Assembly (NCBI GenBank): GCA_021846505.1 | Contig: JAJZWV010000029.1 | Location: 1-44,852 of the forward strand | Source of the DNA: Bacillota bacterium | GTDB lineage: Bacteria; Bacillota; Sulfobacillia; Sulfobacillales; JAIMBI01 | Length of the DNA stretch: 44,852 nt | Direction: 5' to 3' | Shown here: in pieces, positions 24,842-41,479 of the stretch | How the letters are laid out: every line of letters begins with the position of its first letter | Numbering within the stretch: position 1 is the stretch's first letter | Translations under genes and position numbers: made by a program | Notes under the pieces: generated by a model | The model's input: the letters and a program-made list of their open reading frames with translations, nothing else | What the model was told of the DNA's origin: nothing | Databases searched by the model: none

Positions 24842-24916
24842 GTTGCGCTTACCTCCTTTGCACCTTTGTCGCTGTCTGGATGCGAGGCGTCCCTGATTTG
24901 GGACTCCGGCGCCTGC

Positions 24917-25729: not shown

Positions 25730-26643
25730 AGATTAGACCCCACCCATCTCTTGCCGAAGGCAAATTGTGCGAACGTAATGCCACCCAGCAACACCATCAT
25801 GACGACTGATGCGGAAGCTGCTTTCCCGAAGTTGAAAAACTGAAAACCTTGAAGATATATATAGTATGTCAGGGTGCGGGTGACGCCTCCTGGTCCTCCT
25901 GCGGTCATCTCGTAGATTTGGTCGAACGCCTGGAACGACTGAATCACCGAAAACACCAGGGCAAAAAACAGACTCGGTGAGATCGCTGGCAGTGTCACCT
26001 TCCAAAACACCGCCCGGCTGTTGGCGCCATCGACGCGGGCGGCTTCTTGCAAGTTCGGGTCCACTCCCTGGAGGCCACTCAGGAAGATGAGCATATAGAA
26101 CCCCATAAACTCCCACGCCGTTACGATAATGATGCTCAGCATCGCGGTGTGAGGGTTGGTCAGCCAGCTGACGGAGGGGAGCCCCAGGGCTTGCAGCACA
26201 ACATCGACGGCACCAAATTGTGGCTGCAGCAGCCACATGAACGCCAAACTGGACACGACCAAGGGAAATACATAGGGCAGAAAGAAGATGGTGCGGTAGA
26301 TGTGGGTGCCGCGGAGTCCTTTGTCGAGCAGCGTCGCCAAGAGGAGGCCAAAGACCACGACCAGGGTGGTCACCCCAACCGCCAGCGCGAGGGTGTGCAG
26401 AATGGCGGGTCCAAATAAGGCGGATTGGGCCAGCGCGCGGTAGTTTCCGCCCCCGACATACGCCGCCGCAGGATTGACGATGGTTGACTGAAAGAAGCTC
26501 AGGTACACCACGTAGGCCCCTGGAACGAGAAAGAACACTCCCACGGTCAAGAGCCCGGGCAGGAGAAAGAGACTCTCCCACCGGCTGTGCCGGATGCGGA
26601 CCGGTCGATTGGCGGCAACGCGAGATCGTGGATGTCGGGTCAT
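25726..26643 (-). CDS. ABC transporter permease, UgpA/MalF type
   Basis: A 305-residue inner-membrane permease with six predicted helices. The EAA loop is LQEAARVDGANSRAVFWKVTLP, and the family segment MTAGGPGGVTRTLTYYIYLQGF follows. ATG 26643 has AAGGGG about 10 bases upstream; the codon before it is TTG. It is the first gene of the ABC operon. It has a leader of about 230 bases after the promoter at 26881-26909. It pairs with the downstream permease to form the heterodimeric channel. Confidence 0.93.
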   Translation of the reverse strand: MTRHPRSRVAANRPVRIRHSRWESLFLLPGLLTVGVFFLVPGAYVVYLSFFQSTIVNPAAAYVGGGNYRALAQSALFGPAILHTLALAVGVTTLVVVFGLLLATLLDKGLRGTHIYRTIFFLPYVFPLVVSSLAFMWLLQPQFGAVDVVLQALGLPSVSWLTNPHTAMLSIIIVTAWEFMGFYMLIFLSGLQGVDPNLQEAARVDGANSRAVFWKVTLPAISPSLFFALVFSVIQSFQAFDQIYEMTAGGPGGVTRTLTYYIYLQGFQFFNFGKAASASVVMMVLLGGITFAQFAFGKRWVGSNL

Positions 26644-26855
26644 CAATCAGGCGCCCCTTCCCCAATAGTGCTGTGCCGGGAACCTTGTCTTCGTCTCGTG
26701 ACGGGAGTCTCGGAAAGACGGGTTCAGTACGACAGGCAACCAGGTGACGCGACCCTAGAAACCGGTGTCCTAAGGGGATGACTTGACCTTCCGGCGGCCG
26801 CCACTTCAAATGTGCTCTCCAGACGCCTGCGCGGCCTCGTGGGCGGCGCTCAAAA

Positions 26856-26869
26856 TGATAACGCTTACT
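26856..26869. promoter_or_regulatory. LacI-family operator 1, over the ABC operon start
   Basis: TGATAACGCTTACT fits the LacI/CcpA-type consensus TGWAANCGNTNWCA with two mismatches and has the central CG. It lies directly downstream of the -10 box of the minus-strand promoter at 26881-26909. Bound repressor would block transcription start. The same type of site occurs at 28817-28830. Confidence 0.75.
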
Positions 26870-26880
26870 TTTTGTATGAT

Positions 26881-26909
26881 ACCATAGGCGTGGGCGAGCT
26901 GGTTGTCAA
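26881..26909 (-). promoter_or_regulatory. Promoter of the ABC transporter operon (TTGACA-17-TATGGT)
   Basis: On the minus strand a perfect -35 TTGACA (26904-26909) and -10 TATGGT (26881-26886) are exactly 17 bp apart. Transcription should begin near 26874, immediately before operator 1. The stretch is AT-rich relative to its surroundings. Confidence 0.82.
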
Positions 26910-27008
26910 GGCTGTTGTGTGAAATCTCTGGCGAAGCGGGAGCCCCGCTTCCCAGAGGAGCGCGTGGTGTCTGGTCCGGCGGGTTGCCTGGGTGAAAGCG
27001 AGGGGTCG

Positions 27009-28043
27009 ATGTCTGGGCAGAAGCATAAGACGATCAGGGACGTGGCCAGCCTAGCCCGAGTGTCTACGGCCACGGTGTCTCGGGTGTTGAATGGCACCGG
27101 CACGGTGCGCCCGAGGACCGCCGAGCGGGTGCAGCAGGCGCTGACCCAATTGGGGTATGTGCCCAACGGGTGGGCACAGGCGATGGCCGTCGGGAACGGC
27201 ATCAACCTCATGGGGATGGTTGTGCCCGATATCCAAAATCCATTTTTTGCCGCGATCTATGCCGGCGTCAGTGAGGAAGTCCGGAGTCACGGGATGATTA
27301 TCTGGATGGCCAACAGCGGGGACGACCCCGCACAGGAGCGCACGGAGCTATATTCCCTGCAGCGCTACCGGCCACACGGAATCGTGCTGACCCCCACTCA
27401 TCTGACGGAGAATCTGGCGGTGATCGAAAAGATTCCCACTCCGGTTTGTCTGGTTGACCGGCGCCTGGCCGTCGACCAGTGGGACTTGGTGCTCATTGAC
27501 AACAAGCACGGAGCACGTCAGGCGGCTAAGACGCTCATCGAGGCCGGACACAGAGACGTGGCCATTCTCGCCGGTCCCCAAGACACGACGCCAGGCCGAG
27601 AGCGGTTTGAGGGATTTAGGGAGGTGCTTCAGGAGGAGGGGCTGGCGCTGCCGCCCGCGTACGTTGGATTGGGCGACTTTCGGGAGAGCAGCGGGTACCG
27701 AATCGGCCGGGAGCTTCTGTCGCTGGATCACCCGCCGACCGCCATCTTCAGCTGCAACAATCTGATGACCATGGGCTTGCTGCAAGCCATTCAGGCGACC
27801 CCGGGTGCGAGCCTCGGGGAGAGTGTGTCGGTCATTGGGTTCGACGACATCCCGATCTCGACGTTCACCACCCCGCCTCTCACAGTGGTCTCGCGTCCCA
27901 TGAAAGAAATGGGCATTCAAGCGGGACGGCTGATTTTGGACCGAATGGACCACCCCACCCGAGCGAAGGAGACCATTATCCTGATGCCCCACTTGGTCAT
28001 TCGCGGGTCTGAGCGGCTGGCAGCGGCAAAACCCAGGGTATAA
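27009..28043 (+). CDS. LacI-family transcriptional repressor
   Basis: A 344-residue regulator with the LacI helix-turn-helix at the N terminus (TIRDVASLARVSTATVSRV), the hinge LGYVPNGWAQAM and a periplasmic-binding-protein-like sensor domain (NLMGMVVPDIQNPFFAAIY onward; VIGFDDIPISTFTTPPL near the end). ATG 27009 gives the normal family N terminus; its ribosome binding site GAGGGG is close, about 3 bases. Upstream in-frame GTG and TTG codons exist but add non-family residues. It is divergent from the ABC operon and is followed by the HAD phosphatase. Two LacI-type operators flank the gene, so it likely represses the transporter and the second GDPD until an inducer, perhaps a glycerol phosphate derivative, appears. 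Confidence 0.93.
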   Translation: MSGQKHKTIRDVASLARVSTATVSRVLNGTGTVRPRTAERVQQALTQLGYVPNGWAQAMAVGNGINLMGMVVPDIQNPFFAAIYAGVSEEVRSHGMIIWMANSGDDPAQERTELYSLQRYRPHGIVLTPTHLTENLAVIEKIPTPVCLVDRRLAVDQWDLVLIDNKHGARQAAKTLIEAGHRDVAILAGPQDTTPGRERFEGFREVLQEEGLALPPAYVGLGDFRESSGYRIGRELLSLDHPPTAIFSCNNLMTMGLLQAIQATPGASLGESVSVIGFDDIPISTFTTPPLTVVSRPMKEMGIQAGRLILDRMDHPTRAKETIILMPHLVIRGSERLAAAKPRV

Positions 28044-28145
28044 GACTGCCCGGCGGCAGGCGGCGATCTGTGGCCAGGCGGGGCGAGTGTGGCAGACTGC
28101 CCGCTTTTCAGACGGTGAAGGAGAAGGCAAAAGGGAGGCCGACGC

Positions 28146-28769
28146 ATGAGCGTGAAGACACTGCTGGTGGATGTGGGTGGCGTCCTGTTGAACGAGAACC
28201 CCGACTTTTGGGACCTGCTGCGGCGCGATTTCCATGCCCCGGCCAATGTGGAGGCACTGTTTTTCGGCCCGGGCAGTCCGTGGCCGGAGTGCCGGACGGG
28301 GGCACTGGACTACAGCGAGTACATGCGCCGCGTCGCCGAACAGCTGGGCATGGACCCGGGTCTGCTGGCCGAGTTGGCGGACCGGCACGAGTGGATGCTC
28401 AACCAGCCGATGGCAGAGTGGACTCGCGGAGTGCGCCGGCGTGGCCTCGAGGTGATTTTGGTCAGCAACGCGGATCTGACGCTCGAGGCGCGCCTTCGAA
28501 GCTTTGGCCTTGATGATGTGTTTGACGCGGTGGTCAACTCGGCGCGCGTGGGAGCGGCCAAGCCCGATCCGGACATTTATCGCCGGGCGCTCGAGCTGAC
28601 GGCGAGCAGCCCGAGCGAGTGTCTGTTTGTGGACGATCGGGAGAAAAACTGTGCCGCCGCTCGGGAACTTGGTATGGAGGCTCTCGTCTTTGTCGACACC
28701 GAGCAGTTCGTCCAAGAGGTGCGGCGGCGTCACGCGGGTGAGGTCTGGGTGGGCCCTGGAGCCCGCTGA
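28146..28769 (+). CDS. HAD-family phosphatase (IA type)
   Basis: A 207-residue haloacid-dehalogenase-like hydrolase. Motif I is LVDVGGVLL, where the second Asp of the usual DxDx is Gly, as in the YihX/epoxide-hydrolase-like branch. Motif II is ILVSNAD. Motif III Lys lies in RVGAAKPDPDIYRRAL, and motif IV is CLFVDDREKNCAAAR. A cap of about 70 residues follows motif I. GAGAAGG and surrounding purines precede ATG 28146. It lies between the LacI gene and the operator-controlled GDPD. Dephosphorylation of the product of GDPD or of transported phosphate esters is plausible but not shown by sequence. Confidence 0.85.
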   Translation: MSVKTLLVDVGGVLLNENPDFWDLLRRDFHAPANVEALFFGPGSPWPECRTGALDYSEYMRRVAEQLGMDPGLLAELADRHEWMLNQPMAEWTRGVRRRGLEVILVSNADLTLEARLRSFGLDDVFDAVVNSARVGAAKPDPDIYRRALELTASSPSECLFVDDREKNCAAARELGMEALVFVDTEQFVQEVRRRHAGEVWVGPGAR

Positions 28770-28784
28770 ACATCCCCGCACTCG

Positions 28785-28813
28785 TTGACGCGATGCCGCA
28801 AGGAGTCTACGAT
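28785..28813 (+). promoter_or_regulatory. Promoter of the second GDPD gene (TTGACG-17-TACGAT)
   Basis: A -35 box TTGACG (28785-28790) and a -10 box TACGAT (28808-28813) are exactly 17 bp apart. The -10 abuts the operator at 28817-28830. This is the same layout as at the ABC operon promoter. Confidence 0.82.
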
Positions 28814-28816
28814 AGA

Positions 28817-28830
28817 TGTAAGCGCATACA
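28817..28830. promoter_or_regulatory. LacI-family operator 2, upstream of the second GDPD
   Basis: TGTAAGCGCATACA fits TGWAANCGNTNWCA with one mismatch. It covers the expected transcription start just downstream of the -10 box. Its relation to operator 1 suggests one regulator for both. Confidence 0.8.
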
Positions 28831-28869
28831 AGGCGAAGCGACTTTTGCGCGACGAGGAGTGGCTGTGAG

Positions 28870-29619
28870 ATGAAGTTGGAGTCGGATCGTCACCGGGTGT
28901 TTGTTTGGGGCCACCGGGGCGCCCCGGCCCTGGCGGCGGAAAACACCGTCCCTTCCTTTCTGGCGGCCCTGGCGGAGGGCGTGGACGGCATCGAGTTGGA
29001 TGTTCAGCTGGCCGCGGACCACACGGTGGTGGTCCTGCACGACGATACGGTGGACCGCACGACCGACGGCCAGGGATGGGTGGGGCGCTTCACGTGGCCA
29101 GAGCTTCGCCGACTGCGGGCAAAGAACCCGGACGGCACTTGGTCAGCCGATGGGGTTCCCTGTCTGGACGACGTGCTGGACGCAGTGCCCCTCGACACGA
29201 AGGTTTGTGTGGAGTACAAGAATGGGCCGCGCTTTTACCAGGACTTGGTGCCTCGCACGCTCCAGGTGATTCGAGCACACCGAGCCGAGGACCGGGTGAT
29301 AGTGTCGTCGTTTGACCACTGCGCCTTAAGGGAGTCCGCCGAATTGGCTCCGCAGGTGGATCGGGCAGCAGCTTGGGGGATGGTGCGCCTGCTAGAGCCC
29401 TGGAGGGTGGCGGGCGCGGTGGGCGCGAAGTTTGTGCACTTGCACCGAGCCATGGCCCCGGTGCCCGACCTGCGGTCAATGCGAGCTCATGGGCTGGGGA
29501 TCGCTCTTTGGTCGCTCCGGTCGACTGCTGACGTGGGGGAGTTGGCCGAGGAGTTCATCGACGCGGCGTTTGTGGATGACCCCGCGTGGGCGCAGGGGTT
29601 GAAGCGGGCGGGGGCTTGA
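28870..29619 (+). CDS. Glycerophosphodiester phosphodiesterase (second copy, UgpQ-like)
   Basis: A 249-residue cytoplasmic GDPD without signal peptide, like UgpQ. It opens VWGHRGAPALAAENTVPSF with the catalytic His-Arg, then GIELDVQLAADHTVVVLHDD with the metal ligands and second His. The third acidic ligand is in CVEYKNGP. The C-terminal LGIALWSLRSTADVGEL is typical. GAGGAG precedes ATG 28870. It has its own operator-controlled promoter at 28785-28830. With the UgpB-like transporter this forms a plausible uptake-and-hydrolysis unit yielding glycerol-3-phosphate. It differs clearly from the copy at 19329. Confidence 0.93.
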   Translation: MKLESDRHRVFVWGHRGAPALAAENTVPSFLAALAEGVDGIELDVQLAADHTVVVLHDDTVDRTTDGQGWVGRFTWPELRRLRAKNPDGTWSADGVPCLDDVLDAVPLDTKVCVEYKNGPRFYQDLVPRTLQVIRAHRAEDRVIVSSFDHCALRESAELAPQVDRAAAWGMVRLLEPWRVAGAVGAKFVHLHRAMAPVPDLRSMRAHGLGIALWSLRSTADVGELAEEFIDAAFVDDPAWAQGLKRAGA

Positions 29620-29670
29620 TGCCATAGCCGGGAGGAGCCCACGGCGAATCAGGGGCGGAGGCGAAAATCT

Positions 29671-30462
29671 GTGCGCATTCTGCTGGTCAACGACGACGGG
29701 CTGGGAGCGCCTGGCTTGCAGGCGATGGAGCACGCTGCGGCGCGCGATCATGAAGTGGTGGTGGCGGCACCGGCCAGCGAGCGTTCAGCGGTGAGTCAGG
29801 GATTCACGTTTCATCGCAGCTACCGCGTCCAGCGGATGCGGGACGGCGTGTACCGTGTCGACGGCACTCCCGTGGATTGCGTGATGTTCGCGCTGGCGCA
29901 GCTGGGGTCCTTTGACGCCGTGTGTTCGGGAATCAATCGGGGGGCCAACCTGGCCTGGGACGTTTGGTATTCAGGGACCGTGGGTGGAGCGCTGGAAGCG
30001 GCGCGGCACGGCGTCCCGGCGATGGCGGCATCGCTGGACACCCTGCGCTGGCCAGGCACTCCCCGCTTCGATGTGGCCGCCGAAACCCTGACCGACTACT
30101 GGCGAGCGGGGCTGTGGGACGTGGCCAGGGACGGAGCTGTGGTGAATGTGAATTTTCCCAACGAACCGAGTCTGGCTCGACGGATGCCCCGCGTCGCGCT
30201 GCTGGGCCAGTATACCTACAACCGGAACGAGTTGGACGTGCGGCCGCTCGGCCCGGCCGAGTGGGAGGCTCGAGTCGTGCAGCCCGAGACCATTTCCGAC
30301 CCGGGCCCAGACACTGACGGCGGGCTCGTCCGCACCGGGCCGACGCTGAGCCTGCTGACGGCAGCGCAGCATGGGAGGGCCGAAGGCGCGATGGCCAACT
30401 TGGCGCGGTGGGCTGACGCGTTTCGGACGCAGCGTGAGCAGGGAGACGCGATCCAAGACTAG
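29671..30462 (+). CDS. surE: 5'/3'-nucleotidase SurE
   Basis: SurE is a metal-dependent nucleoside monophosphatase, also active on short polyphosphate. The 263-residue protein opens RILLVNDDGLGAPGL with the metal-binding Asp pair. SERSAVSQ holds the metal-binding Ser and SGINRGANLAWDVWYSGTVGGA holds the conserved Asn. GTG 29671 follows GGAGG. It is the first gene of a run of seven same-strand genes with small gaps. Why surE should head a catabolic cluster is unclear; it may act on a phosphorylated substrate rather than nucleotides. Confidence 0.94.
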   Translation: MRILLVNDDGLGAPGLQAMEHAAARDHEVVVAAPASERSAVSQGFTFHRSYRVQRMRDGVYRVDGTPVDCVMFALAQLGSFDAVCSGINRGANLAWDVWYSGTVGGALEAARHGVPAMAASLDTLRWPGTPRFDVAAETLTDYWRAGLWDVARDGAVVNVNFPNEPSLARRMPRVALLGQYTYNRNELDVRPLGPAEWEARVVQPETISDPGPDTDGGLVRTGPTLSLLTAAQHGRAEGAMANLARWADAFRTQREQGDAIQD

Positions 30463-30474
30463 GGGGTGAATGGG

Positions 30475-31251
30475 ATGGCCTCAGCGCAGACGGCGGTGGT
30501 GACGGGGGCGGGTTCCGGAATCGGGCAGGCGTGTGCGGTCGGGCTGGCGCGCCAAGGATATCGGGTGGCGGTGGCAGACGTTCGTCCGGACGCGTCCGCG
30601 ACCACGGCGGCTATGATTCACGAACAGGGTGGGGAAGCGCTGTCCCTTGCCGTAGACGTGAGCGACTCGGCTTCGGTCCAACGCGGCTTCGACCGCATCG
30701 TCGGTCAGTGGGGCGGCGTGAAGGTGTTGGTCAACAATGCAGGCATCGTTCATCAAAGCCTGCTGGAGCATCTTTCGGATGAAGACTGGCACCGCGTGCT
30801 GGATGTGAATCTCACGGGGATGTTCTACATGGCACGGGCGGCGATCCCGCTGCTGCGGGCGGAAGGATCTGGCGGCCGGATCGTGAACATCTCGTCGGTG
30901 CTGTCCACCGTCACCCGGCCTTTAAATGGCCCGTATTCGGCCAGCAAGGGCGGGGTCAACGCGATGACGAGAGCTTTGGCCCTGGAGCTGGCCCCCTCGT
31001 GCATCACCGTTAACGCGGTGGCCCCGGGGCACATCCTCACCCCGCTGACGGTGCCCATGTTCACCCCGGCCGTGACTCGCGCCTTCGAAGAGCGCATCCC
31101 GCTGGGATACCTCGGCCAGGCGGAGTGGATTGCCGATGCGGTGCTGTTCCTGGTAAGTCCCGAAGCCCACTACATCACCGGTCAAGTGCTGTTTGTGGAT
31201 GGCGGCTACAACATCAACGGAGATCTGCCGAATCTGGAGTTCGGGCGCTGA
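30475..31251 (+). CDS. Short-chain dehydrogenase/reductase
   Basis: A 258-residue classical SDR. The cofactor motif is VTGAGSGIGQAC, the NNAG motif is VLVNNAGIVHQS, and the catalytic Ser-Tyr-Lys are in NISSVLSTV and YSASKGG. The end VLFVDGGYNING is typical. An Asp at the end of the second strand (VADVRP) predicts NAD+ rather than NADP+. ATG 30475 has AGGGGG upstream and is favoured over GTG 30466. It starts 12 bp after surE. In this context it could oxidise a sugar, sugar lactol or 3-hydroxy acid. Confidence 0.9.
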   Translation: MASAQTAVVTGAGSGIGQACAVGLARQGYRVAVADVRPDASATTAAMIHEQGGEALSLAVDVSDSASVQRGFDRIVGQWGGVKVLVNNAGIVHQSLLEHLSDEDWHRVLDVNLTGMFYMARAAIPLLRAEGSGGRIVNISSVLSTVTRPLNGPYSASKGGVNAMTRALALELAPSCITVNAVAPGHILTPLTVPMFTPAVTRAFEERIPLGYLGQAEWIADAVLFLVSPEAHYITGQVLFVDGGYNINGDLPNLEFGR

Positions 31252-31298
31252 ATGTCTTGGATGCCGGCGAGATCGCGCGGCCTTAAGGGGGAGAGCGC

Positions 31299-32042
31299 AT
31301 GGACACCTGGAAGCTGGTTGCGCTGGATACGGGTACGTCACTGATCGAGAAGTCCATTCTGACCTATCTCACGGATGTTGGGCAGACGGTGCGCATCCCG
31401 CGGGTGATGTGGTATCTGCAAGGTGCGCAGCGCGTCCTGGTTGACACCAGCGTGGACAGTGAGGAGGTAGCGGCCAACATCATCGGAGAGAACCTTTCGC
31501 GGAGTCCCGATCAGGAGCCCGCCAACGCCTTGAGAGCTGTCGGCGTCGACCCGAAGCAAATCGATCTAATTATCTTTACGCACCTCCACTGGGATCATTG
31601 CGGTAATTTAGCCCTCTTTCCCAACAGCAGATTGCTGGCTCAGCGAGATGAGGTGCGTTATGCCTACGCGCCGAGCCGATTCTTCGAGCGGGCTTTCCTG
31701 TCGCCGCAAGCCGGTTTGGTGCCGCCCTACTTAGGGCGGCGCGTGGAGCTCCTGGGGGGCGACGAGGAGATTTTGCCGGGGCTGCAGGTGCTGCTGAGCC
31801 CGGGACACACACCGGGCTCACAGGCGGTGCGGGTCAAGACGGCTCGCGGCTGGTTTACGATTGCCGGCGACGCGATCTTTACCTATGAAAATTTGGAAAA
31901 AGATATCCCCCCCGGATTTCACGTGCAGGTGGACCAGGCGCTGGATTCCATGCACCGCATCGCACGGGTTTCGGATGTTGTGCTGCCGTCGCATGACTAC
32001 AAGGTGTTTGGAGACCAACTGGTCGTGGAGCTGGGCGGATGA
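31299..32042 (+). CDS. Metallo-beta-lactamase-fold lactonase (AHL-lactonase-like)
   Basis: A 247-residue metallo-hydrolase of the N-acyl-homoserine-lactonase (AiiA-like) branch. The metal motif is FTHLHWDHCGNL (HxHxDH), with a further ligand His in SPGHTPGSQAV, the bridging Asp in IAGDAIFTYEN and the last His in LPSHDYKV. AAGGGGGAG precedes ATG 31299. Proteins of this branch open lactone rings, but most are not true quorum quenchers. With rbsD and an SDR beside it, a sugar-acid lactone is a reasonable substrate guess: the SDR makes a lactone and this enzyme opens it. Confidence 0.87.
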   Translation: MDTWKLVALDTGTSLIEKSILTYLTDVGQTVRIPRVMWYLQGAQRVLVDTSVDSEEVAANIIGENLSRSPDQEPANALRAVGVDPKQIDLIIFTHLHWDHCGNLALFPNSRLLAQRDEVRYAYAPSRFFERAFLSPQAGLVPPYLGRRVELLGGDEEILPGLQVLLSPGHTPGSQAVRVKTARGWFTIAGDAIFTYENLEKDIPPGFHVQVDQALDSMHRIARVSDVVLPSHDYKVFGDQLVVELGG

Positions 32043-32094
32043 CAAGGGGGGAGGGGATGGCACGGGCTGGCCTGTTAGAGGAGGAGTGAAGGCG

Positions 32095-32496
32095 ATGAAG
32101 CAGAGTACGGCGATCCTGCATGGCCAACTGAGCCGTGTGTTGGCGGAGATGGGCCATACGGATGAGTTGCTGGTCACGGACGCAGGCCTGCCGATCCCGA
32201 TAGGCGTCGAACGCGTGGATCTGGCGCTGACGGGAAATGTGCCCCGTTTGGCCAGGGTGCTGCGGATGATTCTGGGTGAGCTGACCGTGGAAGAAGCGGT
32301 GATGGCGGAGGAGATGGCCACCGCCAGCGGGCAGCTGTTCGACGAAATCAGGCAGCTGCTGCCGGCAAGCGTCCGCATCACGGTGGTGCCGCATGAAGAG
32401 CTGAAGCTCAGAACTCGTCGTGTGCGGGCGGCGGTTCGCACCGGCGAGCTGACATGGTATGCCAATATAATCCTGGTTGGTGGGGTCTCGTTTTGA
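32095..32496 (+). CDS. rbsD: D-ribose pyranase / sugar mutarotase (RbsD/FucU family)
   Basis: RbsD/FucU proteins interconvert pyranose, furanose and anomeric forms of free sugars. The 133-residue protein contains MGHTDELLVTDAGLPIP with the catalytic His and Asp, and it ends YANIILVGGVSF, the family's binding-site tail. GGAGG precedes ATG 32095. The family is normally next to sugar transporters or kinases. Here it is between a lactonase and a CoA transferase with no ribose kinase in sight. This implies that a sugar enters this pathway, though which sugar is unknown. Confidence 0.92.
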   Translation: MKQSTAILHGQLSRVLAEMGHTDELLVTDAGLPIPIGVERVDLALTGNVPRLARVLRMILGELTVEEAVMAEEMATASGQLFDEIRQLLPASVRITVVPHEELKLRTRRVRAAVRTGELTWYANIILVGGVSF

Positions 32497-32542
32497 TTGT
32501 CTCAGCGGGACCGCTGGCTGACCAGCAAGGCAGGTGAGTTTG

Positions 32543-34126
32543 ATGACGCGACTCGAGTTTGTGCCCCCCGAGCGGATTGCGGACGCCATTCCAGACGAGG
32601 CTAGTCTGCTGACGGTCGGGATGACTTTAAGCGGTGCATCCGAGACGGTCTTGCGGGCGCTGGAAGCGCGCTTTCTCCGGGAGGGCCATCCAGCGGGACT
32701 GACCCTGATTCACGCTTCGGGTCAGAGCAACCGACAGGACGGCATCCAACATCTGGCCCACGAGGGGATGGTTCGGCGCATCATCGGCTCCCACTGGGGT
32801 TTGGCTCCTCGTTGGATGGACCTGATTGCGACGAACCGCGTCATCGCGTACTGCCTGCCCCAGGGCCAGATTACCCATTGGCTTCGCTCCATGGCGTCGG
32901 GGCTGCCAGGCCATCTCACCCAGATGGGGCTCGAAACCTTCATCGATCCCCGTGTGGAGGGGGGGAAAATGAACGCACGCACTCAGGCCGAGCCCGACTT
33001 GGTCCGTGTCGTGCAGGTAGAAGGCCGGGAGTACCTCTGGATTGAAGCGGTGCCGGTCGATTGGGTGTTGGTGCGTGGGACGTGTGCTGATGACCGCGGC
33101 AACATCGCGGCTACGGAAGAGGCGATGAAGCTAGAGATTCTGCCGGCCGTGTTTTCCGGGCGCCGGTACCGCGGACGGATTGTGGTTCAGGTTAAAGAAG
33201 TGGTGCCGCGGGGCACCTTAAACCCTCGGAGCGTGGAGATCCCGGGAGCGCATGTGCACTTCATCACGGTCGCCCAGGATCCGGAGCGCGATCATCGGCA
33301 AACCTCCAGCGTTGCTTTCGAGCCGCGCTTTTCGAGCCGCGGCTTTGACCCGTCGCTGGCCGACGCGGCCGTGCGGCCGCTTGACGTCCGGCGGGCCATC
33401 GGCCGCCGAGCGATTGCGGAGCTGGCGGCCGGTGACCTCGTGAACATGGGGACCGGCATCCCCAATGACGTCATCGGCCCAGAAGTCCTCAACGAGCAAG
33501 CCGGAGACTTGGTCACGCTGACGGTTGAGTCTGGGGTGTACGGCGGCCGGCCCCTCGGCGGCGTCGACTTCGGCATCGCGGAGTACCCCGATGCGCTGAT
33601 TGAGCACCCCTATCAGTTTGACTTCTACGATGGTCATGGGGTCGACATCACCTTTATGGGATGGGGCGAGGCCGACCGCGAGGGGAACGTGAACGCCACC
33701 AAGCTGGGAGAGCGAGCGACCGGGGCGGGAGGCTTCATCGAGATCACTCAGCAGGCGCGGACGGTGGTTTTCTGTGGAACCTTCACCGCTCACGGCGCAG
33801 ACGTGGAGGTCGGAGGCGGGCGGGTCAGCGTGCGGCGAGAAGGGGACGTGCGCAAATGGGTAGAGCGTGTGCAACAGCTGTCGTTCAACGGCGCCCGCGC
33901 TTTGGCCAACGGCCAGCGAGTCCTGGTGGTGACCGAGCGGGCCGTGCTCCAATTGACGCCGGCTGGATGGACCGTGATCGAGGTAGCACCGGGGGTCGAT
34001 CTGGTGCGGGACGTGTTGGGCCAAATGGACTTCCGGCCACTTTTGGCCAACCCGATGGGGGAGATTCCGCCGATCGTGTACTCGGAAGCCCGTCTCGGCT
34101 TGAAGGCGCGGCTAGCGGGTGAGTAG
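32543..34126 (+). CDS. Acyl-CoA:acetate/3-ketoacid CoA-transferase (fused alpha-beta, YdiF/PCT type)
   Basis: A 527-residue single-chain class I CoA transferase. The alpha half includes the glycine-rich region around MTLSGASETVL and GMVRRIIGSHWGLAP. The beta half carries the catalytic Glu in VTLTVESGVYGG, preceded by NMGTGIPNDVIGPEV. ITFMGWGEADREGNVN and GAGGFIEITQQAR are typical of the YdiF-like propionate/acetoacetate group. ATG 32543 has AGGCAGG upstream and is preferred over GTG 32534. Its stop overlaps the upstream leader of the thiolase. It can activate a short beta-keto or hydroxy acid to its CoA ester using acetyl-CoA or succinyl-CoA. Confidence 0.92.
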   Translation: MTRLEFVPPERIADAIPDEASLLTVGMTLSGASETVLRALEARFLREGHPAGLTLIHASGQSNRQDGIQHLAHEGMVRRIIGSHWGLAPRWMDLIATNRVIAYCLPQGQITHWLRSMASGLPGHLTQMGLETFIDPRVEGGKMNARTQAEPDLVRVVQVEGREYLWIEAVPVDWVLVRGTCADDRGNIAATEEAMKLEILPAVFSGRRYRGRIVVQVKEVVPRGTLNPRSVEIPGAHVHFITVAQDPERDHRQTSSVAFEPRFSSRGFDPSLADAAVRPLDVRRAIGRRAIAELAAGDLVNMGTGIPNDVIGPEVLNEQAGDLVTLTVESGVYGGRPLGGVDFGIAEYPDALIEHPYQFDFYDGHGVDITFMGWGEADREGNVNATKLGERATGAGGFIEITQQARTVVFCGTFTAHGADVEVGGGRVSVRREGDVRKWVERVQQLSFNGARALANGQRVLVVTERAVLQLTPAGWTVIEVAPGVDLVRDVLGQMDFRPLLANPMGEIPPIVYSEARLGLKARLAGE

Positions 34127-34145
34127 GGAGAAAAGGGGTGGAGCC

Positions 34146-35327
34146 ATGGCGGACGATGTAGTGCTGGTGGACGGAGTCCGAACCGCCGTTGGCACTTTTG
34201 GCGGGAGCCTGAAGGATGTGAAGGTCAGTGAGCTTGGCGCCGCGGTGATTCGGGAGGTGCTGCGGCGGTCGGGGGTGGCGCCGGAGACGGTCGATGAGGT
34301 GATTTTGGGCTGTGTTGGCCAGGTATCTCAAGACGCCTTCTTAGCCAGGGTGGCCGCACTCAGCGCGGGACTGCCGACAGATTCCAGCACGGCGCAGACG
34401 GTGAACCGACTGTGCGGCTCAGGGTTGCAGGCCATCATTACGGGCTCCCAGTGGCTGAGGCTGGGCGACGCGGATGTGGTGGTCGCGGGGGGCGCGGAGA
34501 ACATGAGCCGGCTGCCGTACTACGTGTGGAATCGCTGGGGCCGGCGGCTCGGCCACTCCGACTTGGAGGATGGGGTGTTGACGGCGGTGGCAGATCCTTT
34601 CCAGCATTACCCGATGGGCATGACCGGCGAGAAGGTTGCCGAGGAGTTTGAGGTGTCTCGCCTGGAGCAGGACATGCTGGCGCTAGACTCCCAGCAGCGA
34701 GCGAAGGCCGCCATCGAGGAAGGCCGCTTTGAGGACCAGATCGTGCCGCTCAACGTCCAGGATGGCCGTAAGTCACGAGAGTTCAGCGTCGATGAGCATC
34801 CACGGGAAACGTCGCTGGATCAGCTGCAGCGACTCCGTCCCGCCTTCCGAGAGGGCGGCAGCGTTACGGCGGGCAATTCGTCGGGCATCAACGACGGAGC
34901 GGCGGCCGTGGTGCTGATGCGGGCAGGGGACGCCGAGCGGCAGGGCCTCTCTCCCCGCGGCCGACTGGTGAGCTATGCGGTCGCGGGCATCCGGCCGGAG
35001 ATTATGGGGTACGCCCCGGTGCGGGCCATTGCCAAGGCGCTCGACCGGGCCAACCTCACGATCGACGACATCAGCTTAGTGGAGCTGAACGAAGCGTTTG
35101 CGGCTCAGGCTCGGGCGGTGGTTCGCGATGCGCACCTCGACTGGTCGCGCACGAACGTCAACGGGGGCGCCATTGCCCTCGGCCACCCGGTGGGCGCCAC
35201 CGGTGCCATCCTGACGGTAAAGCTCCTCTATGAGTTGGAGCGCCAGCGGGAGCGCTTTGGCTTGGTGACCATGTGCATCGGGGGCGGGCAGGGCATCGCC
35301 GCGGTGGTGGAAAACTTGCGCCGCTGA
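34146..35327 (+). CDS. Acetyl-CoA C-acetyltransferase (thiolase, second copy)
   Basis: A 393-residue thiolase with nucleophile Cys in TVNRLCGSGLQAI, NEAFAAQARAV, catalytic His in NGGAIALGHPVGATGA and second Cys in VTMCIGGGQGIAAV. The length and motifs match PhaA/AtoB-type acetoacetyl-CoA thiolases. ATG 34146 gives the family N terminus and follows GGGTGGAG; the longer reading to 34119 is unlikely. Following the CoA transferase, it would cleave acetoacetyl-CoA or another 3-ketoacyl-CoA to acetyl-CoA. Confidence 0.94.
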   Translation: MADDVVLVDGVRTAVGTFGGSLKDVKVSELGAAVIREVLRRSGVAPETVDEVILGCVGQVSQDAFLARVAALSAGLPTDSSTAQTVNRLCGSGLQAIITGSQWLRLGDADVVVAGGAENMSRLPYYVWNRWGRRLGHSDLEDGVLTAVADPFQHYPMGMTGEKVAEEFEVSRLEQDMLALDSQQRAKAAIEEGRFEDQIVPLNVQDGRKSREFSVDEHPRETSLDQLQRLRPAFREGGSVTAGNSSGINDGAAAVVLMRAGDAERQGLSPRGRLVSYAVAGIRPEIMGYAPVRAIAKALDRANLTIDDISLVELNEAFAAQARAVVRDAHLDWSRTNVNGGAIALGHPVGATGAILTVKLLYELERQRERFGLVTMCIGGGQGIAAVVENLRR

Positions 35328-35371
35328 GTGGGCGGAGGACATTGCCGGAGGACGGCTGAGAGGAGGCATCG

Positions 35372-36091
35372 ATGGAGAAGCCAATCGCGGTCGTGACCGG
35401 AGCCCAGCAGGGGATCGGGCTGGCCATCGCGCAGGTGCTGAGCACACGGGGATTTTACACGGTGTTGTGTGATTTGGATGAAAGGGCGCTGTCGGTCGCC
35501 GCGGAAGCCATCGGGGATAGCTCCGGCTATACCCTGGACGTGAGCGACTTCGCGGCAGTCGAGCGGGTGGCGGCGCAGGTGGAGGACACCTTGGGCCCGA
35601 TTGCCGTATTGGTGAACAACGCGGGCATCAACCGGGATCGCATGTTGCACCGCATGTCTCGGGAAGAGTGGGACCGGGTGGTGGCGGTTGACCTGACCGG
35701 GCCCTTCAATTTCATGCGTCATGTTGTGCCGCGCATGCGCGAGCGACGAGCGGGCCGCATCATCAACATCTCGTCGGCCAGCTGGCAGGGCAATGTGGGG
35801 CAAGCCAACTACGCCGCCGCCAAAGCGGGCGTTATCGGGTTGACCAAGACAGCGGCCAAAGAACTCGCCCCATTCCACATCACGGTGAACGCCATTTGTC
35901 CGGGGTTCATCGACTCGCCCATGACCCGGCGCATGGCGCCGGAGGCTTTCTCGGCCATGGTGGCCAAGATCCCCGTCGGACGGATCGGCACGCCGCACGA
36001 TGTGGCCAAAGTGGTGGCCTTTCTGGCTTCCGACGACGCTTCCTACGTGACCGGCGAGGTCATCAACGTGGGGGGGGGGATGGTGCTGTAA
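35372..36091 (+). CDS. FabG/PhaB-like short-chain dehydrogenase
   Basis: A 239-residue SDR close to 3-oxoacyl-ACP reductase/acetoacetyl-CoA reductase. It has VVTGAQQGIGLAIAQ, VLVNNAGINRDRMLHRM (a FabG/PhaB hallmark), Ser in NISSASWQGNVGQ, YAAAKAG and the ending GEVINVGGGMVL. Asp in LCDLDERA suggests NAD(H). GAGGAGG precedes ATG 35372. It closes the surE-to-SDR run. Working with the thiolase and CoA transferase it could interconvert 3-hydroxy and 3-keto acids or their CoA esters. Confidence 0.92.
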   Translation: MEKPIAVVTGAQQGIGLAIAQVLSTRGFYTVLCDLDERALSVAAEAIGDSSGYTLDVSDFAAVERVAAQVEDTLGPIAVLVNNAGINRDRMLHRMSREEWDRVVAVDLTGPFNFMRHVVPRMRERRAGRIINISSASWQGNVGQANYAAAKAGVIGLTKTAAKELAPFHITVNAICPGFIDSPMTRRMAPEAFSAMVAKIPVGRIGTPHDVAKVVAFLASDDASYVTGEVINVGGGMVL

Positions 36092-36291
36092 GAGAAAGTT
36101 TCGGAGCGACACCCAGCGCAGCGGCTCTCGCGATTATGGCGGCAAGCCGCTCACCTGGCCTGCAGTCTCCTCCAGGGTCCCACGGCCAAGCCGGCCATCG
36201 TTGCAAGGCATGGCGCTCGGCCGGGTGCCGGTGAGGAGTGGCGTGCGTGGTCCCTTCGCGAGGCGGTGGGAATTCTGACGCAGGCGGCCCG

Positions 36292-37272
36292 CTACCCGAG
36301 ACGAAACACGCGCATCATATTGACGGCGGCAAGGCCGAGCGCGAACGCCAGCGGCAAGGTCGTTACCCAGACAATCAGCAGACGGAGCACTGTCGGCCAC
36401 TCAATTCGCCGCGGGGCGAGCGCGGAACCAAGGCCGAACAGCGATCCGTCGGTCGTTTCGGTGGTGCTGACGGGCAGTCCCAAAAGGGCGGCCGACACCA
36501 CGGTGACGGCGGCAGAGCCCTGTACGGCCAAGGAGTGCAGCGGTCGGATTCGAAAAATGTGCCCGCCCACGGTTCGAGCAATTCGCAATCCGCCTGCGAG
36601 CAGCCCAGCCGTCCAGAACACCAGGGGCAAGCCGATCGCGGCGAGGGTCACGTGATAGTGACTCCCGGCGGCGGTTGTGAAAGCCAGGGCCATAAGGCCG
36701 ATGGCCTTTTCTTGGTCGTTGGCGCCGTAGGCCAGCCCTTGCACCGTGAGTGTGGCGACCTGCAAGTAGCCCAGCTGCCGCGGGTTCGCCACCGAGACGC
36801 CTCGGAGCATGCGCCACAGCAGCCGCGTGACCCAGAACGCCACAATGTAACCCACGAGCACGGACCCGAAAAGCCCTCCCACCACCTTTGCTACCCCGCC
36901 CCAATGGATAAGCGCCGCCTGGCCATTTAAGAGGGTGGCGCCCACCATTCCTCCCGCCAAGGCGATGGTCGTGCTGGAGGGGAGGCGAAGGCGCCACGTG
37001 ATCAGCAGGGTCATGATGGCGGCGATCAGTGCAGCGGTCAGCACCGAGAATCCGGCCCGGTGGAAGTTGATAATCTCGACGGCGATGGTGTGGGAGACGG
37101 CCGTACCGAAAAGGAGTGGTCCCACGGCAATGCTGGCAATCAAGAGAGGAATCAGCACACGGGGCGACACGGCTCGAGTCGGCAAGAAGGTGCCTACCAA
37201 ATTGCCGCCGCCATTGATCCCGGCGATGGCGGCAAACAGGCCGATCAGCACCGGCAGCGTCCAGCCGGTCAT
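36292..37272 (-). CDS. PiT-family inorganic phosphate permease
   Basis: A 326-residue integral membrane protein with about ten hydrophobic segments. The C-terminal PiT signature is clear in GLAYGANDQEKAIGLMALAF, with PVSTTETTDGSLFGLG after it. The N-terminal repeat reads AGINGGGNLVGTFLPTRAVSP where most family members have GANDxAN, so the first signature is altered. PSSTTIALAGGMVGA is the matching first-half motif. ATG 37272 has no convincing ribosome binding site, and the gene lies 64 bp after the DUF47 gene. PiT-DUF47 pairs are a standard low-affinity phosphate uptake unit. Confidence 0.9.
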   Translation of the reverse strand: MTGWTLPVLIGLFAAIAGINGGGNLVGTFLPTRAVSPRVLIPLLIASIAVGPLLFGTAVSHTIAVEIINFHRAGFSVLTAALIAAIMTLLITWRLRLPSSTTIALAGGMVGATLLNGQAALIHWGGVAKVVGGLFGSVLVGYIVAFWVTRLLWRMLRGVSVANPRQLGYLQVATLTVQGLAYGANDQEKAIGLMALAFTTAAGSHYHVTLAAIGLPLVFWTAGLLAGGLRIARTVGGHIFRIRPLHSLAVQGSAAVTVVSAALLGLPVSTTETTDGSLFGLGSALAPRRIEWPTVLRLLIVWVTTLPLAFALGLAAVNMMRVFRLG

Positions 37273-37336
37273 CGGGGTGTCGCGCTTCGCCGACGACCAT
37301 CCCGGACAAAGATCGTCGACGTGCCGAGGGACAAAA

Positions 37337-37966
37337 CTACCGGCCTTCCTTGATGATGATGTCCACGATCACGTTGGCGGCGTTGTCAACCCGGTCGGCG
37401 GAATTTGACAGGTGGCGGTAAACTTCACGCAGACGAATCGCGTACGAGAGGTCATCGACGTGGGACAGATCCGCAATGGCTTGGCGATAGAGGGCCTCCA
37501 TGCGGTTCTCCAGCCGCTTGGCGTCTTGGGCCCGCTTCTGGCCTAAGAGGCGGTTGCTGGGGAGCGCCTGAATTGCTTCGTGAATGGCTTTGCCTGCTTC
37601 GGCCAGCGTGGCCACCATCTCTCGGATGGCAGAATCGGGGTTGATGCCGTACAGGTGGATTTCCTTGATCGTGTTTTCCGCGTAGTCAGCGATATCATCC
37701 ACCGCGCGCGACAGGTGGTTGATGTCCTCTCGGTCAAAGGGGGTAACCAAAGATTGCAGCAAGTCGCCAACGAGCCGCGCGCGGAGCCGATCCCCCTCGT
37801 GCTCCCACTCCGAGGCCTGACGAGCCAGCTTCTCTTTCACACGGGAATCGCGTGAGGTCACGAATTGATGCAAAAGCTGCACCACTTGGGCCATGACTGC
37901 GGCCTGCTCGGCCAACCCGACGACGAACGGACTGGGGCGGGCGCTGAAAACTTCTCGCCAGCTCAC
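37337..37966 (-). CDS. DUF47/PhoU-like partner of the PiT permease
   Basis: A 209-residue, mostly helical PhoU-like protein that usually regulates the adjacent PiT transporter. It contains VTPFDREDINHLSRAVDDIADY, the hallmark of DUF47, and C-terminal YRHLSNSADRVDNAANVIVDIII with metal-binding acidic residues. GTG 37966 is chosen because GGGAGAGGGGG lies 6 bases upstream and the mapped promoter would start transcription near 37987. ATG 37987 is in frame but would give an almost leaderless message. Confidence 0.9.
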   Translation of the reverse strand: MSWREVFSARPSPFVVGLAEQAAVMAQVVQLLHQFVTSRDSRVKEKLARQASEWEHEGDRLRARLVGDLLQSLVTPFDREDINHLSRAVDDIADYAENTIKEIHLYGINPDSAIREMVATLAEAGKAIHEAIQALPSNRLLGQKRAQDAKRLENRMEALYRQAIADLSHVDDLSYAIRLREVYRHLSNSADRVDNAANVIVDIIIKEGR

Positions 37967-37993
37967 GACGGCCCCCCTCTCCCTCATAACATA

Positions 37994-38022
37994 ATCGTAA
38001 CATGTTCTTAATCCAACGTCAA
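37994..38022 (-). promoter_or_regulatory. Promoter of the DUF47-PiT operon (TTGACG-17-TACGAT)
   Basis: On the minus strand -35 TTGACG (38017-38022) and -10 TACGAT (37994-37999) are exactly 17 bp apart. Both boxes match those of the second GDPD promoter base for base. No Pho-box-like repeat is recognised around it. Confidence 0.82.
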
Positions 38023-38826
38023 TCAAAGTCCGGGACTGTGCGAAGGTCCGTGGCCGGGGCAAGACACCCAGGATCGCGACGCGCTCCGAGGCGGCGCGGA
38101 CGGTCTTTGGCCGGGGGGGAGCTTGGTGCCCAAGTGGGCTGAAGGTGGCGGGTGCAGCGGGCGGCCGCCGCATCAGCAGATGATGCGGCTGCGCGGTGTG
38201 GTGCAGAAGCGACACTTTGGGCCCCAGGTGCCGAATCCGAGGCCGCAGGTGTTGGCCTCACCCGACGGCGGCTGGCGGCGAGGGGACCGGCGCAAAAGCC
38301 ACCTAGTGGTCCTGCCGAAAGCGTTTGTCGACCCGCCGCCGGGCTGGTCGCGGGTCGGGACGCCGCGCGGCAGGGCGCTACTGCGCCGCGGGACGGTCCG
38401 GCGCTGGGCGCGCTGACCGTCGCCATCCCTGCTCCAGCACGGTGCCGCTGCAGAGTCAGGACTGCTCGCGGAGCGCGCTGCGCACCGAGCCAGATCCGCG
38501 CGAGGTGGGGGCACCACGACGAGCCCCTTGTGGCGGCGTTCGGGCGGGTGGTATATCCGAACCCGCGGAACGTCGGGCCGTCGCAGAGTGGGAGCACCGT
38601 TGCCCACTCCACCACCGGTCTAAGTTGCTTCGGTGGCCGTCCGCCGGGCAGCACATCGTTCCCAACGCAGGACGCCAAGACCCGCGAGTTCTCCCAAGCC
38701 TCCCTGCGCGGACCAGGCGGGCTTTGACGCGGGTTTAGGCCGTGACACTTGCGAGGACGCGGGGCTGGTGCCAAGATGCCGTCTAGGCGCTTCGCGCCAA
38801 TCGTGAGTTGGGGAAGGGGAGCGCCG
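38023..38826. other. Non-coding or decayed stretch before glycerate kinase
   Basis: About 800 bp with open frames on both strands, for example 38123-38416 on the plus strand (97 codons) and a long minus-strand frame at 38019-38894. Their composition is Arg/Pro/Gly-rich and no family is recognised. They look like chance frames in GC-rich DNA or an eroded gene. Confidence 0.45.
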
Positions 38827-39918
38827 GTGCGGGTGCTGATTGCCCCAGATGCACTCAAGGGCGCCATCAGCCAGCAGCTGTTTGCCGTGGGCATTGCCGC
38901 GGGCTTGCGCCGCGCGCTGCCCGATGCGGAGGTGATTGGCTGTCCCCTGGCGGATGGAGGTGAGGGGACTGCCGCCGTCGTGCAGGCGGCGCTCGGGGGC
39001 CGCCTTGTCCGCGTGCCGGTGCGCGACGCCTACGGGCGCCCCCGCAGCGCTGGGGTGCTGGTGCTGCCGGACGGCACTTGGGTGATAGAGGCCGCCGAGG
39101 GGCCAGGCTTTGTGCCCGAGGCTGAGCGCCCCCAGTCCGCGGCGTCTGCCACCAGCGCCGGCCTCGGCGACATGTTGGCTGCAGCGATTAAGGGGGGAGC
39201 CGAGCGCGTGTGGGTCGGCCTCGGCGGGACCGGCAGCACGGATGGCGGCTGGGGCCTGCTGCAGGCCCTGGGTGCTGCCGGCGACGGCGTGGCCCTCCGC
39301 CTGCAACCGTTTCCGGTGGCCCTGACTGCTTGGTGTGATGCGATGGTGCCGGCTACGGGTCCGCGCGGCGCGGTCATGCGCTACGGGCCACAAAAGGGCG
39401 TGGCGCCGGGCGAATTGGCGGCGCTGGCCGCCACGGTGGACGAGCGGGGCGCCGCCCTGGAAGCGGCAGCGGGCCGGCCGTTGCGGCAGCAGCCCGGTGC
39501 GGGAGCGGCTGGCGGTGCGGGCATGGCCCTCGCCGCCCTCGGCGGGCAACTGGTGCCCGGCGCCGAGGCCGTAGCCCGAGTCGTGCACCTGGACGACTGG
39601 CTCGACGTCGCGGATGTGGTCGTGACGGGAGAGGGCCGGCTGGACGAATCGTCCCTGGACGGCAAGGTGGTGGGGACGGTGCTGGCTCACGCCAGCACGC
39701 GGAGCGTCCCCGCCGTGGCGCTGGTGGGCGAGTTTGGGTCGGCCGCGGCCATGGAGGCGGCTTATGCCGCCGGGTTGGTGGCCGCGTTTCCGTTGGCCTT
39801 GGGGCCCCAAACACGAGAAGCGGCGATGGCCCAGAGCGCGTACTGGGCAGAGCAAGCCGCCTACCATGCGGGGCGTTGGCTCACCCGGTGGCCCTGGCAG
39901 CCGATAGGAAAGGCTTGA
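38827..39918 (+). CDS. glxK: Glycerate kinase (GlxK/GarK family)
   Basis: A 363-residue type of glycerate kinase that phosphorylates D-glycerate, usually to 2-phosphoglycerate. The N terminus VRVLIAPDALKGAIS, the substrate loop CPLADGGEGTAAVVQAALGG, GLGGTGSTDGGWGLLQALG and the later VVTGEGRLDESSLDGKVVG are all family signatures. GTG 38827 has GGAAGGGGAG just upstream; the upstream extension to 38749 is not family-like. It stands alone between decayed stretches. It links glycerate or glyoxylate metabolism to glycolysis. The symbol reflects family membership only. Confidence 0.93.
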   Translation: MRVLIAPDALKGAISQQLFAVGIAAGLRRALPDAEVIGCPLADGGEGTAAVVQAALGGRLVRVPVRDAYGRPRSAGVLVLPDGTWVIEAAEGPGFVPEAERPQSAASATSAGLGDMLAAAIKGGAERVWVGLGGTGSTDGGWGLLQALGAAGDGVALRLQPFPVALTAWCDAMVPATGPRGAVMRYGPQKGVAPGELAALAATVDERGAALEAAAGRPLRQQPGAGAAGGAGMALAALGGQLVPGAEAVARVVHLDDWLDVADVVVTGEGRLDESSLDGKVVGTVLAHASTRSVPAVALVGEFGSAAAMEAAYAAGLVAAFPLALGPQTREAAMAQSAYWAEQAAYHAGRWLTRWPWQPIGKA

Positions 39919-40906: not shown

Positions 40907-41479
40907 ATGAGCCTGAGTACGTGGGCGAAGGAGCAGGGCATCAGCTGCCAAGCCGCGTGGCGAATGTACCGGGATGGCAAACTGCCCGTGCCGACGGAGC
41001 CACGGCCCACGGGGACGATCATCGTGAAGCCGCCGAAGGAGGAGCCCACCGGGGTGGCGGTCTACGCGCGCGGATCCTCATTCGACCCGCGTTCGGATCT
41101 TGATGGGCCGGGGGCGCGTGTGGTGGCGTTCGTGACGCACCAAGGCTGGCCGGTGGGGCGCACGGGAATGGCGGGGGGCTCCGGACTCACCGGACCCGTC
41201 CGCCGCTCATGCAGGTGCTCGCGGCCCCCTCCGTCGCCAGCGTGGCCGTCGCGCATCGGGATCGGCTGACGTGATTCGGTGCGCCGACGATGTGGAGGCA
41301 GCGCGGGCGGCGCAAGGACGACGCCTGGTTGTGGTGGATCCGGGCGAGACCCCGGACGATCTCGCGCCGGACGGGATCGAGGGGTGCACCGCATTCTGCG
41401 CTCGGCGGAACGGGCGGCGCTCGGCCCAGCCTCGCGCCGAACGCGCCCTGCGGCGTGCCGCCGAGGACGGGGCGCCATG
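40907..41479 (+). pseudogene. tnpA: IS607 tnpA serine recombinase, frameshifted
   Basis: IS607 TnpA is a serine recombinase with a MerR-like N-terminal DNA-binding domain. That domain is intact from ATG 40907 (MSLSTWAKEQGISCQAAWRM), followed by TGTIIVKPPKEEPTGVAVYAR with the start of the catalytic domain. The catalytic Ser region reads YARGSSFDPRSDLD, close to the normal YARVSSxDQ. From about 41180 the sequence changes frame twice: LAAPSVASVAVAHRDRL is in a second frame and EAARAAQGRRLVVVDPGET in a third. The product would be truncated. Confidence 0.82.

Follow-up and report, generated by a model that had tools for sequence, protein, structure and literature searches.

The window analysed here, a 44,852-nucleotide stretch that forms the entire contig JAJZWV010000029.1 (G000:C94) of a 3.58 Mb Bacillota assembly (GCA_021846505.1) whose relatives include a Sulfobacillus benefaciens metagenome-assembled genome, contains a run of seven genes that begins with a SurE-family nucleotidase and ends with a FabG-like short-chain dehydrogenase/reductase (SDR). 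From gene content and comparison with related clusters, we favour with moderate confidence the view that this run and its neighbours encode the oxidative breakdown, by a non-phosphorylating route, of a free 2-deoxy sugar, for which 2-deoxy-D-ribose is the most likely candidate. The products formed from this sugar of DNA would most likely be acetyl-CoA and glycerate. Our inferences extend in the same way to the point at which CoA is attached relative to C3 oxidation, to the CoA loop and to what the SurE, glycerophosphodiester phosphodiesterase (GDPD), HAD and aldehyde dehydrogenase proteins do. Pathways of this kind have been known since 2019; what is new is that the complete set leading from the sugar to acetyl-CoA lies in one operon, and that it includes an NAD-type SDR, a metallo-lactonase in place of an SMP-30 lactonase and an RbsD protein, with neither a beta-keto acid cleavage enzyme nor a CoA-synthetase. 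We put forward more tentatively the specific proposal that a lineage of Sulfobacillus-related Bacillota possesses a pathway devoted to free 2-deoxyribose, with a single CoA-transferase that activates the sugar acid and also discharges glyceryl-CoA, giving an ATP-free CoA loop.

The gene unit and the proposed pathway

Open reading frames (ORFs) were mapped on the window and families were assigned with Pfam and NCBIfam profiles and curated equivalog cut-offs, whereas genome-wide gene content outside the window was sampled by targeted searches. As originally predicted, the seven ORFs are co-directional with small gaps; all are located on the + strand and together they span 29671-36091, with intergenic distances of 3, 47, 52, 37, -8 and 44 nt:

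29671-30462 (+): SurE 5'/3'-nucleotidase family (NCBIfam, 141.5 bits, cut-off 135.1; one of three copies in the genome)
30466-31251 (+): SDR1, proposed NAD-dependent 2-deoxyribose 1-dehydrogenase (Pfam/NCBIfam; Asp after beta-2, YxxSK)
31299-32042 (+): metallo-beta-lactamase-fold lactonase, proposed deoxyribonolactonase (NCBIfam; sequence relatives in PDB are AiiA and 4-pyridoxolactonase)
32095-32496 (+): RbsD pyranase/mutarotase (D-ribose pyranase equivalog, 143.9 bits, cut-off 93)
32534-34126 (+): fused family I CoA-transferase (Pfam/NCBIfam)
34119-35327 (+): BktB-like thiolase (Pfam/NCBIfam)
35372-36091 (+): SDR2, FabG-like, proposed 3-hydroxyacyl(-CoA) dehydrogenase (Pfam/NCBIfam)

These outer borders, which were also those of the original prediction, proved too narrow, since the unit is larger than seven genes and also includes the genes for a LacI-type regulator, a HAD hydrolase, GDPD, a divergently transcribed ABC transporter and an aldehyde dehydrogenase. 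A glycerate kinase that could perform the last step is encoded on the same strand 2.7 kb downstream of SDR2, outside the operon and separated from it by two genes on the opposite strand:

21702-23201 (-): aldehyde dehydrogenase, succinate-semialdehyde dehydrogenase-like, probable accessory gene (Pfam Aldedh)
23525-26646 (-): Ugp-like (CUT1-type) sugar ABC transporter (NCBIfam), comprising the binding protein (23525-24841) and two permeases (24917-25729 and 25726-26646)
26919-28043 (+): LacI/RbsR-type regulator (NCBIfam/Pfam; nearest models RbsR-type)
28146-28769 (+): HAD hydrolase (Pfam)
28870-29619 (+): GDPD family (Pfam)
38749-39918 (+): glycerate kinase, probable last step (NCBIfam TIGR00045, over cut-off)

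A second glycerate kinase gene, 83% identical to that in the window, is present in the same genome (G000:C98, L146 653-1747).

The lactonase, CoA-transferase and thiolase are clear members of their families but score under the functional equivalog cut-offs; in the case of the lactonase, the best models gave 104.8 against a cut-off of 325 for the 4-pyridoxolactonase equivalog and 91 against 375 for the N-acyl homoserine lactone (AHL) lactonase (AiiA) equivalog. Its HxHxDH metal site is kept in all seven homologues. In the SDR family, an Asp after beta-strand 2 is typical of enzymes that depend on NAD, and since this residue is invariant in both SDR1 and SDR2, both are predicted to use NAD and hence to work in the direction of oxidation.

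In the proposed pathway, the ABC transporter would import the sugar or a phosphorylated precursor, and in the latter case GDPD, SurE and HAD may free the sugar by dephosphorylation. This is the least secure part of the scheme. The three proteins accompany CUT1-type transporters, in the related cluster L022 and partly in L049, but are missing from clusters with RbsABC-type transporters. RbsD would provide the correct ring form of 2-deoxyribose by mutarotation, SDR1 would oxidise C1 with NAD to give the lactone and the metallo-lactonase would open this to 2-deoxyribonate. The CoA-transferase would form the CoA thioester, either deoxyribonyl-CoA or 3-ketodeoxyribonyl-CoA, before or after NAD-linked oxidation at C3 by SDR2, and the thiolase would cleave 3-keto-deoxyribonyl-CoA to acetyl-CoA and glyceryl-CoA. 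Attachment of CoA before C3 oxidation is slightly favoured by homology to an enzyme assigned to acyl-CoA substrates. The same CoA-transferase would then pass CoA from glyceryl-CoA to the next acid molecule, releasing glycerate for phosphorylation by glycerate kinase; as CoA would thus be recycled from glyceryl-CoA, activation could proceed without ATP.

Relation to the Klebsiella and Pseudomonas pathways

Evidence for the second half of this scheme came from comparison with a plasmid collection of 72,556 records. The CoA-transferase (51.8% identity), thiolase (55.6-55.9%) and SDR2 (51.7-52.1%) have their best matches, among 274, 1225 and 2116 matching records respectively, in one and the same set of three Klebsiella pneumoniae records, which carry the genes side by side. 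The gene order in K. pneumoniae (adenylate-forming enzyme, CoA-transferase, FabG-type SDR, thiolase, MFS, SMP-30 lactonase, MFS, glycerate kinase) is that described for K. michiganensis M5al RS23695 to RS23730; the identities were measured against the syntenic K. pneumoniae genes, and the tie to K. michiganensis is through gene order. The K. michiganensis M5al cluster (BWI76_RS23695-RS23730) is required for growth on 2-deoxyribonate, although K. michiganensis itself does not use deoxyribose (PMC6365646). One plasmid-borne copy of this cluster type in K. pneumoniae (L122, NZ_CP091979.1) has an ISKpn1 element (11589-12952) between the thiolase and the first MFS gene, and a 5.37 Mb Klebsiella record (L121, CP125156.1) is titled 'plasmid unnamed2', its size suggesting a mislabelled chromosome.

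Phylogenetic analysis, based on quick builds with SH-aLRT (Shimodaira-Hasegawa-like approximate likelihood ratio test) rather than bootstrap support, grouped the window CoA-transferase clade with the Klebsiella/Budvicia clade and a Lachnospiraceae-type group at 99%, apart from other family I enzymes, and united the window and Klebsiella SDR2 proteins at 94%. Moreover, the motif SASWxGNxGQxNY around the catalytic Tyr is common to the window, Klebsiella and most cluster SDR2 proteins, with variants in L044 and L049, but is not found in the PhaB/FabG-type comparison proteins, one of which shows the near form SASALGNRGQANY.

The window and the Klebsiella acyl-CoA deoxyribonate pathway have in common a CoA-transferase, a FabG-like SDR and a thiolase (51-56% identity), together with a lactonase and a glycerate kinase that in the window is encoded outside the operon, and for the window we propose the same thiolytic cleavage to acetyl-CoA and glyceryl-CoA. 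In contrast, no match to the Klebsiella CoA-synthetase, SMP-30-type lactonase or MFS transporters was detected in the 44.8 kb window, which instead contains SDR1, RbsD, the metallo-lactonase and the ABC transporter, so that the sugar itself could be the input. The CoA-transferase is retained even in clusters that encode an acyl-CoA synthetase (Klebsiella, Budvicia and G031), consistent with its acting on glyceryl-CoA as suggested by Price et al. (PMC6365646). Since the window cluster has no synthetase, its CoA-transferase would perform both activation of the acid and discharge of glyceryl-CoA.

The oxidative deoxyribose pathway of Pseudomonas simiae (PS417_07245-07255 and 10880-10890; PMC6365646) likewise runs from sugar to lactone, acid and 3-keto acid, yields an acetyl unit and glyceryl-CoA and employs a glycerate kinase. 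It differs in its molybdenum-dependent dehydrogenase, in place of which the window has an NAD-type SDR, and in its beta-keto acid cleavage enzyme. No molybdenum-dependent deoxyribose dehydrogenase was found in the operon, to which this search was confined, and no match to the cleavage enzyme family (PF05853) was found in the whole genome, on which ground a beta-keto acid cleavage route was rejected. The kinase/aldolase pathway of deoK and deoC serves the same sugar but acts on its phosphorylated form, giving acetaldehyde and glyceraldehyde 3-phosphate, and its enzymes are not encoded in the operon.

The original prediction divided the run into a half converting a sugar via its lactone to an acid and a half comprising beta-keto acid and thiolase chemistry, with a beta-keto acid arising after oxidation of the sugar, and both ideas are well supported by the comparative evidence. 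Its statement that no described pathway joins these seven genes fails for most of them, as oxidative deoxyribose and deoxyribonate pathways unite a sugar dehydrogenase, lactonase, hydroxyacid dehydrogenase, CoA-transferase, thiolase and glycerate kinase (PMC6365646), leaving RbsD, SurE and GDPD as extras. The ketone-body-like route that it envisaged stands as chemistry only, and 3-hydroxybutyrate as a substrate found no support. Ketone-body or polyhydroxybutyrate turnover was rejected, given the sugar-type genomic company and family scores below the cut-offs (50.1 against 128.5 bits for pcaI/scoA; 188.8 for SDR2 and 195.1 for SDR1 against 307 for PHB_DH). Our searches of one literature collection found no paper combining deoxyribose, rbsD and CoA-transferase, and nothing relevant on Sulfobacillus with deoxyribose.

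Of the four organisms in the 2019 study, only one was found to have a deoxyribose dehydrogenase, and the study did not settle which substrate the pathways serve in nature (PMC6365646), while GapMind in 2022 listed the glyceryl-CoA hydrolase of deoxyribonate oxidation, which converts glyceryl-CoA to glycerate, as unknown (PMC9007349). The CoA-transferase is a concrete candidate for this step and, because the operon bundles import, mutarotase, sugar dehydrogenase, lactonase and CoA-transferase, both questions could be tested with approximately five purified proteins. If the proposal is correct, it would tell against the idea that disposal of deoxyribonate waste was the main driver in the evolution of these pathways. 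It would also give a lactonase fold of the quorum-quenching type a place in central sugar catabolism and add Sulfobacillus-like Bacillota to the organisms that use deoxyribose oxidatively.

Conservation and genomic company of related clusters

Homologues were sought in 151 genomes, with cut-offs of E<1e-70 for SDR1, E<1e-60 for the lactonase and E<1e-130 for the CoA-transferase; related loci and genomes are referred to below by their L and G labels. Seven genomes (G000, G010, G020, G021, G031, G040 and G129) encode SDR1, the lactonase is found in exactly these seven, and the two genes are adjacent in all of them. The CoA-transferase is present in 12 genomes, which include all seven with the SDR1-lactonase pair, an overlap with a hypergeometric probability of ~3e-9 if the kinship of the genomes is ignored. 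None of the three proteins was detected at these cut-offs in G001-G003, the three further genomes from the genus of the window, so that the distribution is patchy. The SDR1-lactonase pair looks to be restricted to this order and a single relative at class level, since a search of 398 genomes of the phylum gave no further close relative of the lactonase.

The search for co-occurrence proposed with the original prediction recovered the order SurE-SDR1-lactonase-RbsD-CoA-transferase-thiolase-SDR2 identically in L022, from another genus of the same order, with identities of 52-75%. L023 keeps this order as far as its 5-kb contig extends, the thiolase being cut by the contig end; since the L022 and L023 genomes are near-identical and belong to one genus, they count as one independent case. 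RbsD is 56-57% identical in the two loci. In L022, GDPD (55% identical) likewise precedes SurE, and two aldehyde dehydrogenase genes and HAD follow the seven-gene set. The aldehyde dehydrogenases are 62-70% identical to that of the window within the L022 cluster, 64% in L143 and 55% in L049, and the HAD copies of the L022 and L143 clusters are 52% identical to the window protein. ABC transporter genes are present in the clusters of relatives but are weakly conserved (28-46%). A LacI-family gene occurs in L025, L041, L047, L050 and L143, and a glycerate kinase gene lies inside the clusters L047, L025, L041 and L143.

Elsewhere the set splits into two modules, SDR1-lactonase and CoA-transferase-thiolase-SDR2, the latter referred to below as the trio. 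Scattering of the genes, which would have told against a joint function, is seen in G031 insofar as the modules are on separate contigs, although this genome still has both. All on one strand, L047 has genes for a LacI protein, RbsA-, RbsC- and RbsB-type proteins, a SnoaL-like protein, the SDR1-lactonase pair, SDR2, thiolase, CoA-transferase and glycerate kinase. L025 and L041 contain a LacI gene and the trio, accompanied by genes for a sugar-binding protein, a lactonase and an SDR that differ from those of the window, an RbsA-type ATPase, permeases, a 3-hydroxyacyl-CoA dehydrogenase and a glycerate kinase. In L024, a nucleoside 2-deoxyribosyltransferase-family gene and a nucleoside hydrolase directly precede CoA-transferase-thiolase-SDR2, and L143 (G031) combines glycerate kinase, acyl-CoA synthetase, CoA-transferase, thiolase, SDR2, LacI, aldehyde dehydrogenase and HAD. 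L049 (G129) comprises SDR1, lactonase, aldehyde dehydrogenase, ABC transporter genes and SurE, divergent from thiolase, CoA-transferase and SDR2. The gene sets of these relatives point to a pentose-type sugar, a glycerate product and, in one case, deoxynucleosides.

Directly after the SDR2 homologue in G129, a frame matching aconitase X (L049 5010-7028, -) may represent a fusion or a gene-calling artefact. A sister cluster in gut- and plant-associated bacteria (L029-L033, L036, L040 and L044) combines acyl-CoA synthetase, CoA-transferase, 3-hydroxyacyl-CoA dehydrogenase and thiolase, with glycerate kinase in some members; the Olsenella cluster also has a class II aldolase and an iron alcohol dehydrogenase. 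This sister cluster is possibly another pathway for thiolysis of a sugar acid.

Alternative readings, regulation and surroundings

Several observations weigh against assignment of the unit to deoxyribose. In the thiolase tree, the window clade and the Klebsiella clade do not form a group that excludes BktB, the window glycerate kinase is only 34% identical to that of Klebsiella and lies outside the operon, and SurE, GDPD and HAD have no role in known deoxyribose or deoxyribonate pathways. Sequence and PDB searches found no close relative with a known substrate for either SDR1 or the lactonase, and deoC is present elsewhere in the genome, so that deoxyribose phosphate could alternatively take the aldolase route. 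The same chain of enzymes might act on another 2-deoxy aldose, or on a sugar freed from an imported phosphodiester or glycoside, with C3 oxidation and thiolysis yielding acetyl-CoA and a hydroxyacyl-CoA. This would accommodate the CUT1-type transporter, the association of GDPD, SurE and HAD with the window and L022 as opposed to RbsABC-type clusters, the type I phosphodiesterase also carried by L022 and the strong variation of transporters from cluster to cluster. However, the glycerate kinase of several clusters suits a five-carbon 2-deoxy sugar, whereas a hexose would yield erythronyl-CoA, and RbsD and the RbsABC-type genes suit a pentose; we regard a different substrate of this sort as unlikely.

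D-ribose itself, proceeding through ribonolactone, ribonate and 3-ketoribonyl-CoA to glyceryl-CoA and glycolyl-CoA, would explain why RbsD scores over the D-ribose pyranase cut-off, why RbsR-type models come closest to the LacI protein and why L047 carries ribose-type ABC genes. Yet the related Klebsiella trio works on deoxyribonate, the trio in L024 adjoins a deoxyribosyltransferase-family gene and, to our knowledge, thiolysis of a 2-hydroxy-3-keto acid to glycolyl-CoA is not an established reaction, making ribose an improbable substrate. It is more doubtful still that two unrelated modules, one for sugar-lactone oxidation and the other for 3-hydroxybutyrate or a short-chain hydroxyacid, merely lie side by side. 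SDR1-lactonase does stand alone in L048 and the trio is found without a nearby SDR1 in L024, L025, L027 and L143, but the CoA-transferase accompanies the pair in all seven genomes, L047 and L050 join both modules in an arrangement unlike that of the window and the trio loci L025 and L041 hold another lactonase-SDR pair, ribose-type ABC genes and glycerate kinase. Two further functions were rejected. Although the window lactonase shares its fold and metal site with AiiA AHL lactonases and 4-pyridoxolactonase, it is always paired with SDR1 in sugar-catabolic company, which argues against quorum quenching. For vitamin B6 degradation, 4-pyridoxolactonase is the best family of the lactonase and pyridoxal 4-dehydrogenase is one of the SDR models, but all scores are far under cut-off, and there is no place for CoA-transferase and thiolase.

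Candidate regulatory sites precede the GDPD gene, each identified as a consensus match only:

28785-28813 (+): promoter-like TTGACG-17-TACGAT
28817-28830 (+): LacI-type operator-like TGTAAGCGCATACA, 39 bases before GDPD

TGTAAGCGCATACA is the sole match in the window to the LacI/CcpA-type consensus TGNAANCGNWNNCA, with 0.49 expected. A second promoter-like site faces the ABC transporter and has a similar half-site, AACGCTTAC, downstream of it. The occurrence of the operator-like site and the similar half-site at both promoters suggests that one repressor might control both divergent transcripts. No shared operator motif emerged when operator-like sites were compared between the clusters of relatives.

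The G+C content is 0.61-0.66 across the cluster (~18000-38000), 0.55 at 24001-26000 (ABC transporter genes) and ~0.70 on either side, and this low-G+C stretch looks like acquired DNA. Genomes of the same genus that have no cluster genes are also without the neighbouring PhoU-like gene. Beside the aldehyde dehydrogenase are a second GDPD family gene (19329-20171, -) and a putative cyclase-family gene (PF04199; 20507-21514, -). Near the contig end, at 41271-43219 and 43614-43686, are transposase fragments of the OrfB_IS605 and Mutator families and a tRNA-like gene with an unresolved anticodon.

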